Positions 2,966-6,159 of a stretch of 64,000 nucleotides of DNA are shown piece by piece. The position numbers and the translations under genes are program-made. The DNA is from Nitrososphaerales archaeon (lineage in GTDB: Archaea > Thermoproteota > Nitrososphaeria > Nitrososphaerales > CADDZS01): assembly GCA_030041295.1 (NCBI GenBank), contig JASHOD010000036.1, positions 1-64,000 of the forward strand, written 5' to 3'. The notes beneath the pieces are model-generated. The model saw only the letters and a program-made list of their open reading frames with translations. It was not told the origin of the DNA and did no database searches. Position 1 is the stretch's first letter, and each line of letters opens with the position of its first letter.

Positions 2966-3481
2966 TCAGGTTATAGAAGGTACAACTTCTGAGATTGTCT
3001 TGTCATTGATCAAATACGCCTCTGCTCTTGGCTTTGCATCGAGAACAACAAATGGCATGGACTCCAATCCAAATTGAAGCATGAACTTATCTCCCAAAAC
3101 AAATGGAATACCGATGAGTGATTCCTTTACGAGTTGGTCATCGATATCTTCGACTCCCTTAAAATAAATAAGAGGCGCCAAAGAGATTTTCTCTGCAAAT
3201 ACTACCTCAATTCTTCTGATCGAAGCGTCATCCCCAACTTCTAGTCCAGAGTTTTCGCGCATGAGAACATCGAGTCGCACAATTTCTTTATTGAGGTCGC
3301 CTTTGAACAATGGCATGCATCTACAAACTGTGCGTCGTTCTCCTACAACTTCCACCACTGCCCCCAAGGAAACGCCAAGCAAATCCATTGTTTTAGGATC
3401 GATGCGTGCAATATTCTTCCCAACATCTCTTGTGTAAGAGCGCAGTGCCTTAACTCTTACTCTACTGATTTGCCCGCTCAA
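2966..3481 (-). CDS. Stand-alone Cdc48/VAT N-terminal domain protein
   Basis: A 171-residue protein that aligns with the substrate-recognition N-domain of archaeal Cdc48/VAT ATPases. Residues about 10-90 follow the double-psi barrel (ARIDPKTMDLLGVSLGAVVE, IVRLDVLMRENSGLEVGD, EKISLAP), and about 95-171 the Cdc48 domain 2 region. No AAA+ ATPase domain follows and the gene ends cleanly. In full-length Cdc48 this domain binds substrates and adaptors. A free copy could act as an adaptor or decoy, or regulate the ATPase; that is inference. It overlaps the upstream gene by 4 bp, so the two are translationally coupled. Confidence 0.78.
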   Translation of the reverse strand: MSGQISRVRVKALRSYTRDVGKNIARIDPKTMDLLGVSLGAVVEVVGERRTVCRCMPLFKGDLNKEIVRLDVLMRENSGLEVGDDASIRRIEVVFAEKISLAPLIYFKGVEDIDDQLVKESLIGIPFVLGDKFMLQFGLESMPFVVLDAKPRAEAYLINDKTISEVVPSIT

Positions 3482-3987
3482 GCTACTTCTTCTGCCTCCT
3501 GTGATAACCCCGTTTGACTATACTTTGTGGAATTTGAGATGACTCCAGTATGCTCTAATCCCGTTTCGGTGAGCCAATACCTTCGAGGCTCAGATTCATC
3601 ATTAGCTACCCATCCGTACTTGTTACCAAGTACAGCCGATGCAACCATGCTTACAGTTCTCGAAACCACCCCTTCACCTCTTTTTTCCAACATTTCTTGC
3701 CCTCCGCCTAAACCTCTCATATTCTCGATGATCTCTTCGATCGTTACTGATACTTTTTGGTTTGTAGCTCCCGCTCGAAAGAGGGACGCGAGAATCAATT
3801 CGTTGAAACGTCCAAAGGCGTTGGAAGAACGAGCCCACTCCGCATGTTGGCGAACCGAATTGTCATCTGAAGAAGACAATCTCTCCATCGACACATCCTC
3901 GTATCCGTTTTCCTCAAGGAGTTTCAAGAGCCTCGATGCATGGTCCAAAGAATCCACTTTTACTTTGACCGAATAACTTGGAATCAT
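3478..3987 (-). CDS. Unrecognised protein with possible winged-helix region
   Basis: 169 residues, no known family recognised. The N-terminal 60 residues look alpha/beta (VKVKVDSLDHASRLLKLLEE). Residues about 75-145 have helix-helix-helix-beta character ending in RRYWLTETGLEH, typical of the wing of archaeal winged-helix proteins. It is the first gene of a two-gene unit with the orphan Cdc48 N-domain (4-bp overlap). A TATA-like CTATAAATA on the minus strand at 4018-4026 lies about 35 bases before its start, so the mRNA is nearly leaderless. A role as partner or regulator of the Cdc48-like protein is inferred from coupling alone. Confidence 0.62.
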   Translation of the reverse strand: MIPSYSVKVKVDSLDHASRLLKLLEENGYEDVSMERLSSSDDNSVRQHAEWARSSNAFGRFNELILASLFRAGATNQKVSVTIEEIIENMRGLGGGQEMLEKRGEGVVSRTVSMVASAVLGNKYGWVANDESEPRRYWLTETGLEHTGVISNSTKYSQTGLSQEAEEVA

Positions 3988-4017
3988 AATGTAACGTTAA
4001 CGATGACGTAATGCTAT

Positions 4018-4026
4018 GTATTTATA
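4018..4026 (-). promoter_or_regulatory. TATA box for the 3987 start
   Basis: CTATAAATA on the minus strand, centred about 35 bases before the ATG at 3987, which places the expected transcription start about 8 bases before the start codon. Confidence 0.55.
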
Positions 4027-4196: not shown

Positions 4197-4592
4197 ATGA
4201 AAGTACCGGTAGGAGTGTCAATGCGGGCGTCATCTGCGAGAGCAAGAATGTTGATCGTTGCAATAATTGTAGCAGTCGCAATTGTTGGAGCCGTTACAGT
4301 TATCACTATTCATTCTCATTCTACGATTTCTTCAGCTTCATCTTCGGGCGAGAGCAACCTCTTGAGTTGTCTAGTAGAATACAATCGTGTGTATACCGGA
4401 TACTATGCTTCTGATAGTACAACATTTGGGACAGAGACAACTCAATCTTACAACAGCAGCTTCACTACAACAACTTCGGTATATCAATCGGTTAGCTATG
4501 TGACATCGACCGAGTACAACTACACGGGCACGATGACGGGAGCGATCGGAGAATGGACCATTTCAGCTTGTACTTACACAACAACAAAATAA
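4197..4592 (+). CDS. Membrane-anchored Ser/Thr-rich exported protein
   Basis: 131 residues. A short basic N-terminus is followed by a hydrophobic helix at about residues 18-40 (MLIVAIIVAVAIVGAVTVIT). The rest is an extracellular-type segment very rich in S, T and Y with N-x-S/T sequons and two cysteines. It looks like a type II anchored or signal-peptide surface protein that could be glycosylated. A TATA box at 4161-4168 supports this start. I recognise no family, and no neighbour hints at a function. Confidence 0.6.
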   Translation: MKVPVGVSMRASSARARMLIVAIIVAVAIVGAVTVITIHSHSTISSASSSGESNLLSCLVEYNRVYTGYYASDSTTFGTETTQSYNSSFTTTTSVYQSVSYVTSTEYNYTGTMTGAIGEWTISACTYTTTK

Positions 4593-4701
4593 GGGCAAGA
4601 GGATGTATATTGAGTTCAGAAAATTCTGAAGAAGAAGGATTGTAAGAAACTAAGCGCGGGACCTTGAACGGCTACTTTCGAAAAATCCATTCCGTAGCAG
4701 A

Positions 4702-6159
4702 TTATTCAGATTTTGCCGCTGCCGATTGTTTTTCCTGCGAAGAAGAGGCGTACACACTGACGGCCTTCCAATTTGTGAATTCCTTCAGCCCGTACTTCGA
4801 CAGCTCCCTTCCGAGACCGGATTTCTTTATTCCGCCGAAGGGCAGCCTCGGGTCTGATTTCACGAGCGCATTGATGAAGACCATTCCGCTTTCAATGTCT
4901 TTTGCGATGCGTTTCCCTCTATCGAGATCGCTTGTCCAAATGCTTGCGCCAAGCCCGAATTCGCTGTCGTTAGCCAAGTTAATCGCTTCATCCTCACTGT
5001 CAACAACGAGAATAGGGGCTACAGGGCCGAATACCTCTTCGCTCACCACTTTCATTGTTTTGTCCACATTGTCGAAAACCGTCGGCTGGTAGAACGCTCC
5101 CACACCAGGGATTGGGTTACCTCCGAGCAGAAGGCGGGCTTTCTTTGAGACAGCGTCTCGCACCTGTTCATCTAATGATCTAACCTGGTCTCTGTTTGCA
5201 AGGGGACCAACATCAGTATTTTTGTTCATAGGATCTCCGACCTTTTTCCTGGCCATTTCTGAGACAAATCCTTCGGTGAATTCCTTTGCTACTGACTTCT
5301 GAACGATGAATCTCTTTGCGCAGATGCAACTTTGTCCAGAATTTAGAAGACGAGCTTCTACTCCAACCTTTGCGGCCTTTTCCACGTCCGCATTTTCTAA
5401 GACGATGAAAGGATCGCTACCGCCTAATTCCAAGACGCATTTCTTCAGATTCCTGCTAGCGATTTCTGCGATTCGAATACCGGCTGCAACGCTTCCCGTA
5501 AGAGACACGCCGCTTATGTAATCGGATGCGATCAACTCTCCCACTAAATCGTGGTTTGTAATCACTGTGGTAAACACTCCTTCCGGAAATCCAGCATCCT
5601 CGAAAGCCTCTTGAATTGCGAGGGCACTTCCCGGGCATACGTTAGAGTGTCTTAGAATTGAGACGTTACCCGCTGACAAGGCTGGAATTGCAAAACGGAA
5701 TGCCTGCCAGAATGGGAAATTCCAAGGCATGACTGAAAGGATCACGCCCAGAGGGTCGTACTCGACGTAGCTTTCTTTGGAGTCGGTCGTTGCAAACTCC
5801 TTTTCAAGCCACTTTGCTGCATTCTGTGAATACACTTCAGCTCCCCAAGCGCACTTGTCTACCTCTGCTTCAGCTTGGGCAATCGGTTTTCCCATCTCCG
5901 AAGTCATGATTTCAGCATATTTTGTCTTCTTAGACCGTAGTGCCTTCGCTAGTTTTCGGAGATATTCCTCTCTTTCTTCAACAGTGGTTAATCGCCACTT
6001 TGTGCGAAAAGTTTCTCTTGCTTTCCTTGCGACCGAAGATACTTTATCATTGCCTTGTAGTTCATAAGTCGCGATCCTTTCGCCAGTCGCAGGATTTACA
6101 CTTTCGATCACAGATCTTGCAGAAGAGGAAGAAGAAACCGAGTCTGCTACCTGGGTCAT
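4702..6159 (-). CDS. NAD(P)-dependent aldehyde dehydrogenase, succinate-semialdehyde type
   Basis: 485 residues, full length for the ALDH superfamily. Visible are the PWNFP oxyanion-hole motif (N147), the TGS of the cofactor site (about 221-223), the general base in LELGG (E244) and the catalytic cysteine in NSGQSC (C278). The stretch ILRHSNVCPGSAL in place of the common KPSE segment is typical of the succinate-semialdehyde/YneI-like branch, which oxidises aldehydes to acids using NAD(P)+. The substrate is not proven. An AT-rich TATA-like element lies about 30 bases before the start. Confidence 0.9.
   Translation of the reverse strand: MTQVADSVSSSSSARSVIESVNPATGERIATYELQGNDKVSSVARKARETFRTKWRLTTVEEREEYLRKLAKALRSKKTKYAEIMTSEMGKPIAQAEAEVDKCAWGAEVYSQNAAKWLEKEFATTDSKESYVEYDPLGVILSVMPWNFPFWQAFRFAIPALSAGNVSILRHSNVCPGSALAIQEAFEDAGFPEGVFTTVITNHDLVGELIASDYISGVSLTGSVAAGIRIAEIASRNLKKCVLELGGSDPFIVLENADVEKAAKVGVEARLLNSGQSCICAKRFIVQKSVAKEFTEGFVSEMARKKVGDPMNKNTDVGPLANRDQVRSLDEQVRDAVSKKARLLLGGNPIPGVGAFYQPTVFDNVDKTMKVVSEEVFGPVAPILVVDSEDEAINLANDSEFGLGASIWTSDLDRGKRIAKDIESGMVFINALVKSDPRLPFGGIKKSGLGRELSKYGLKEFTNWKAVSVYASSSQEKQSAAAKSE

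Follow-up and report, generated by a model that had tools for sequence, protein, structure and literature searches.

What a Cdc48 N-domain might do when it is encoded apart from its motor is the question raised by a two-gene operon at positions 2966-3987 of a 64,000-nucleotide stretch of a Nitrososphaerales genome (contig JASHOD010000036.1; the whole stretch is referred to here as the window, and the genome that carries the pair as G000). Framed for this operon, the question is which partners the free N-domain has, and how Cdc48 responds when the free N-domain is made. The physiological function of the VAT N-domain is stated to remain unclear in the accessible part of PMC5423775, and an N-domain-only operon with its own putative switch puts that question into one testable gene. 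Literature searches returned no paper on a stand-alone or free Cdc48 N-domain, and the terms 'standalone' and 'thaumarchae' were not found in the accessible text of PMC5070193.

Both open frames and their coordinates are those given by an earlier, sequence-only reading of this DNA, with the strand corrected to minus, so that the gene of unknown function comes first. This first gene, the partner gene, occupies 3478..3987 on the minus strand (3987 to 3478 in reading direction), begins with ATG and encodes 169 amino acids with no family match. The second occupies 2966..3481 on the same strand (3481 to 2966), begins with TTG and encodes a free Cdc48/VAT N-domain of 171 amino acids that is matched by CDC48_N, TIGR01243 and VAT-N. 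The claimed 4-bp overlap was confirmed: the stop codon of the partner gene and the start codon of the N-domain gene share the TTGA at 3478..3481 (minus strand). Directly 5' of the partner start codon lies an operator-like 26-bp element (3988..4013, minus strand), and 31 nt upstream of that codon a TATA-like box, TATAAATA (4019..4026, minus strand), reads as a putative promoter. Beside the pair, the window also encodes a small Ser/Thr-rich protein (4197-4592, plus strand) with a hydrophobic N-terminal stretch and no family match over cut-off.

The second gene product is, as had been claimed, a Cdc48/VAT N-domain without ATPase modules. It matches Pfam CDC48_N (PF02359) over residues 12-92 with 72.5 bits (3.3e-20), passing the gathering cut-off of 35.1, and among the profile matches to 2966-3481 this Cdc48-N profile was the best, with no unrelated double-psi barrel family scoring better. 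CDC48_2 (PF02933) is alignable but diverged (19.9 bits, under its cut-off of 22.4). TIGR01243 aligns to residues 9-166 (9.8e-26) with only positions 3-159 of its 733 and scores 90.3 bits against the 802.65 of a full-length, tandem-AAA Cdc48; the PDB structure of VAT-N, 1cz4, matches at 6.7e-14. Compared with the N-domains of Cdc48, VAT and p97, the double-psi-barrel half is clearly homologous and the alignment spans both halves as far as the N-D1 linker, whereas the second half falls below the Pfam cut-off, the AAA modules are missing and the gene is part of a two-gene operon. An AlphaFold2 model of the protein (mean pLDDT 30.4) was set aside, and no conclusion is drawn from it. The D1-contact loop FGGRL is missing from all six distinct free N-domains described below; its loss was considered as a sign of release from the motor and rejected, because full-length type-B Cdc48s in the same alignment also lack FGGRL, which makes the absence uninformative on this point.

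No AAA module follows the N-domain in the window, the frame stopping where Cdc48 goes on with YEDIGG. Its C-terminus, ..VVPSIT, corresponds to VPQVTYEDIGG in Cdc48, and the protein therefore ends where the first AAA module would be joined on. An ending that resembles the Cdc48 linker cut at YEDIGG might be expected of a decaying, functionless fragment of a Cdc48 gene, an origin that we consider scarcely credible: dN/dS for the N-domain is 0.08-0.27 where dS is unsaturated and the ratio measurable (values at very high dS being rough), a sign of purifying selection, and the free N-domains form one clade over two families, each with a partner gene and the 4-bp overlap.

Conservation of the pair was followed with two profiles in a class sample of 400 genomes, apparently the same 400 for both, since each sample gives 220 high-quality genomes and 82 genera. 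The partner profile (A2) matched strongly in 8 of the 400 genomes; at E ≤ 0.01 the count is 10, the weak matches in G056 (E 3.6e-4) and G290 (E 0.0037) lying in 520-aa frames and being dropped as chance. A 398-genome sample of the phylum returned G000 plus three weak rows (E 0.003-0.01) with the same profile. Profile A7, made from six free N-domains, placed exactly seven free N-domains on top (273.3-285.5 bits), followed by a full-length Cdc48 at 185.6 bits. Thus the pair proved to be conserved: an N-domain of the pair clade is present in seven of the eight partner genomes and in no other genome of the class sample, and all seven pairs show the 4-bp start/stop overlap, as ATGA five times, GTGA once and TTGA once. 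Because neither gene differs between G031 and G228, the seven comprise six distinct pairs, the N-domains of which form a single clade (support 98/97) on the type-A Cdc48 N-domain side of a tree of 57 N-domains. The clade spans two families. As assembled, two of the pairs have a damaged partner gene beside an intact N-domain frame, with an in-frame stop near the partner start in G003 and with roughly the first 90 residues of the partner missing in G402. The eighth partner genome, G027, belongs to a third family and has no free N-domain; in its place, the partner gene is followed by an ABC ATPase and a permease. No relative of the partner or of the N-domain was found in viral contigs, and none of the partner in plasmids and phages.

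That the other protein of the pair, the partner, is without a known family, as had been supposed, held up for the window protein in Pfam, NCBIfam, PHROGs, PADLOC and PDB sequences, none of which gave a credible match. No known HTH family was found for this protein in Pfam and NCBIfam, nor for the six A3 members in Pfam at E ≤ 5, and an hmmsearch of the partner profile against the PDB gave three chance-level rows only. An AlphaFold2 model built from two sequences, of low confidence (mean pLDDT 52.4), places a beta-alpha-beta unit at residues 6-36 and then helix-helix-helix-strand-strand, the order of a winged helix. Foldseek returned no match to this model at E ≤ 0.001. The top VIA-align rows for residues 58-149 include Mur, Fur, PerR, linker histones, forkhead and Rio2, at Z ≤ 5.2, and such model-based likenesses to winged-helix proteins are suggestive only. 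The topology is probably beta-alpha-beta plus winged helix. Conservation is highest at residues 105-143, the presumed recognition helix and wing, with a mean column identity of 0.80 against 0.35-0.60 elsewhere, and dN/dS for the partner is 0.16-0.37 where dS is unsaturated, values at very high dS again being rough.

A DNA-binding role for the partner is also suggested by the region directly before its gene. The minus strand of the window at 3988-4013 reads CATTACGTCATCGTTAACGTTACATT, and between G000 and G001 25 of these 26 positions are identical (-1 to -26). Identity drops to 15/34 at -27 to -60 and to 16/60 at -61 to -120, and the first 60 coding bases of the partner genes, aligned without gaps, agree at 20/60. 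The upstream regions of G001 and G027 have an exact 17-mer in common, a length reached by none of 1000 shuffles (largest 14), while the longest word common to G000 and G027 is 13, which 1 of 1000 shuffles reached. The core of the element, TAACGTTAACGATGACG in plus-strand reading (3992-4008), is found exactly in 3 of 400 genomes of the order (G000, G001 and G027), always before the partner gene, compared with seven exact sites in seven other genomes for the reversed control. With up to two mismatches allowed, the core TAACGTTAACGATRACG has a single site in each of G000, G001 and G027, located at the partner promoter, and none in G002, G003, G004 and G006; G037 has one site with two mismatches, and the reversed control has 0-7 sites per genome. 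Three other pair genomes (G031, G228 and G334) carry instead a palindrome, GCATTAC-N5-GTAATGC, as a single copy at the partner promoter. The palindrome is absent from G402, G017, G048 and G000, and G001 has one site with one mismatch, elsewhere than at the partner promoter. By eye, the two element types have only the CATTACG half in common. G003 and G402, in which the 5' part of the partner gene is broken or missing, have no element. A candidate operator, conserved and confined to the promoter, is present in five of the seven pairs as well as in G027. When judged against archaeal promoter spacing, its location in the window, between the TATA-like TATAAATA and the start codon, fits repression, and the single-site pattern makes the partner a candidate regulator that one short DNA duplex would suffice to test.

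Winged-helix autoregulators of small operons are a known class in archaea, with examples upstream of ABC transporters, and the position of the partner gene in G027, upstream of an ABC ATPase and permease, is a usual place for a local regulator. The operon resembles members of this class in its probable winged helix, in a dedicated promoter element near a TATA-like box and in a payload directly downstream; it differs in that the regulator matches no named family and that the payload in all but one of the 8 genomes is a Cdc48 N-domain. If the predicted fold is right, the arrangement of regulator plus payload would be ordinary, and the Cdc48 N-domain as payload out of the ordinary. On this evidence we regard it as probable that the partner has a winged helix, binds DNA and represses its own synthesis. 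The same evidence bears on the proposal that the two proteins are an adaptor pair redirecting Cdc48. A conserved, overlapping pair with a free N-domain does exist, but an adaptor role for the partner is not supported, since G027 has the partner and no N-domain; the same element and regulator before an ABC transporter point to a cassette regulator rather than an unfoldase adaptor, and a winged-helix, DNA-binding autoregulator is the likelier function.

Such a regulator could also be pictured with the N-domain as its sensory or structural co-subunit, the barrel binding the partner or a ligand and thereby tuning DNA binding, with Cdc48 uninvolved. A likeness is offered by archaeal RbkR, in which a winged helix is joined to a riboflavin kinase of barrel type; in both, a winged helix would work together with a barrel from the broad cradle-loop class, but here the two domains are encoded by separate genes and the barrel is that of Cdc48-N instead of riboflavin kinase. 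The tight genetic coupling of the two genes and the finding of strong sites only at the operon's own promoter are in keeping with a co-subunit, as is the better retention of type-A-conserved residues in the double-psi-barrel half of the free N-domains (0.68) than in the second half (0.38). This uneven retention is unspecific, however, since full-length type-B Cdc48 shows it too (0.58 against 0.34), and G027 has both the partner and the element without an N-domain, from which it follows that the N-domain is dispensable for the regulator. We consider the co-subunit unlikely, if worth keeping in view.

The flanking genes vary from locus to locus, G031 and G228 excepted, and some of them are of an accessory type. 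Adjoining the pair in G031 is an AbiEi/AbiEii-type system (L043:3792-4577 and 4812-5726, plus strand), and a DUF4258 gene lies at L043:1876-2154 (minus strand); against Pfam these neighbours score 25.9 bits for AbiEi_4 (cut-off 25), 30 for AbiEii (22.5) and 45.5 for DUF4258 (25). A possible CHAT-like protease adjoins the pair in G334 (L060:1374-1928, plus strand; 17.9 bits against a Pfam cut-off of 24), near transposases. A toxin-antitoxin-like module, in which the partner would be antitoxin and autorepressor and the free N-domain would poison Cdc48 by competing with its N-domains, would be in keeping with the accessory-type neighbours in G031 (AbiEi_4, AbiEii, DUF4258), G334 (DDE transposase) and G402 (AAA_10). 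The operon shares with type II modules its gene order, with the inferred DNA-binding regulator first, the small size of its genes, their co-directional 4-bp overlap, the element at its own promoter only and a patchy distribution. Yet there is no credible match to a toxin or antitoxin family in Pfam, NCBIfam or PADLOC, the neighbours looked at in G001 and G003 belong to ordinary metabolism, and G003 and G402 keep an intact N-domain frame even though their partner gene is damaged. These differences make a toxin-antitoxin-like module improbable.

G000 also carries two full-length Cdc48 genes (C70 and C46), each with an N-domain of its own. The free N-domain might nevertheless serve, in trans, an AAA ATPase that has no N-domain, and single-AAA frames of about 307-328 aa do occur in G000, G001, G003 and G006. 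Against this, across the ten genomes searched the top AAA matches fall in frames with an N-domain match of their own, the short AAA frame occurs in G006 in the absence of the pair, and no strongly AAA-matching frame of this short kind is listed for G031. The idea of an N-less Cdc48 assisted in trans was rejected, as the occurrence of AAA matches does not follow that of the pair, and service to any N-less AAA ATPase appears very improbable.

The reading we place first, at about an even chance, is that of an operon with its own regulator plus a Cdc48-directed payload. The partner, as a winged-helix protein, would bind the 26-bp element that lies downstream of the TATA-like box and before the start codon of its own gene, and would thereby repress its own operon; upon release of the repressor, the free Cdc48 N-domain would be made as payload, coupled to the partner through the 4-bp overlap. 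In the accessible part of PMC5423775, VAT without its N-domain is reported to have raised ATPase and unfoldase activity, which suggests that N-domains can restrain the motor; a free N-domain could compete for whatever docks on them or add restraint. The likeliest use of the payload would be an action in trans, either in competition with the N-domains built into Cdc48, over substrates or adaptors, or as an extra brake; the net effect would be that Cdc48 is throttled or redirected once the repressor lets go. Taken singly, an action of the free N-domain on Cdc48 is something we hold with considerable reserve. More doubtful still is the full form of the proposal, in which a switchable, motor-less N-domain acts on the Cdc48-proteasome pathway as brake, decoy or poison, and a dedicated winged-helix repressor with a single site, exchangeable between payloads, controls it. 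We know of no native archaeal regulator that acts via the Cdc48 N-domain interface; if the proposal is true, the pair would be the first of which we are aware.

Cdc48-N-like sequences without a motor were also seen outside the pair clade. Comparison of the N-domain with plasmids gave 47 records, all below 60% identity, and of the best 8 of these 47 two coincide with annotated Cdc48 ATPases and six with no listed gene; among the matches listed, Natrinema and Halobacterium plasmids carry Cdc48-N-like stretches of 28-29% identity where no gene is listed. G029 encodes a 332-aa protein (L087:1005-2003, minus strand) in which the N-terminal half is Cdc48-N-like and the C-terminal half without assignment, with no AAA module seen. 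G059 encodes two further free Cdc48-N proteins of 173 and 188 aa (L045:4222-4743 and L046:4172-4738, both plus strand), which fall on long branches elsewhere in the tree of 57 N-domains, where the program warns of long branches; the second sits among genes that by eye are phage-tail-like. The same genome contains a Cdc48-like gene that is split over separate frames (L047:4210-4461 and 4521-6113, plus strand) and is apparently disrupted.
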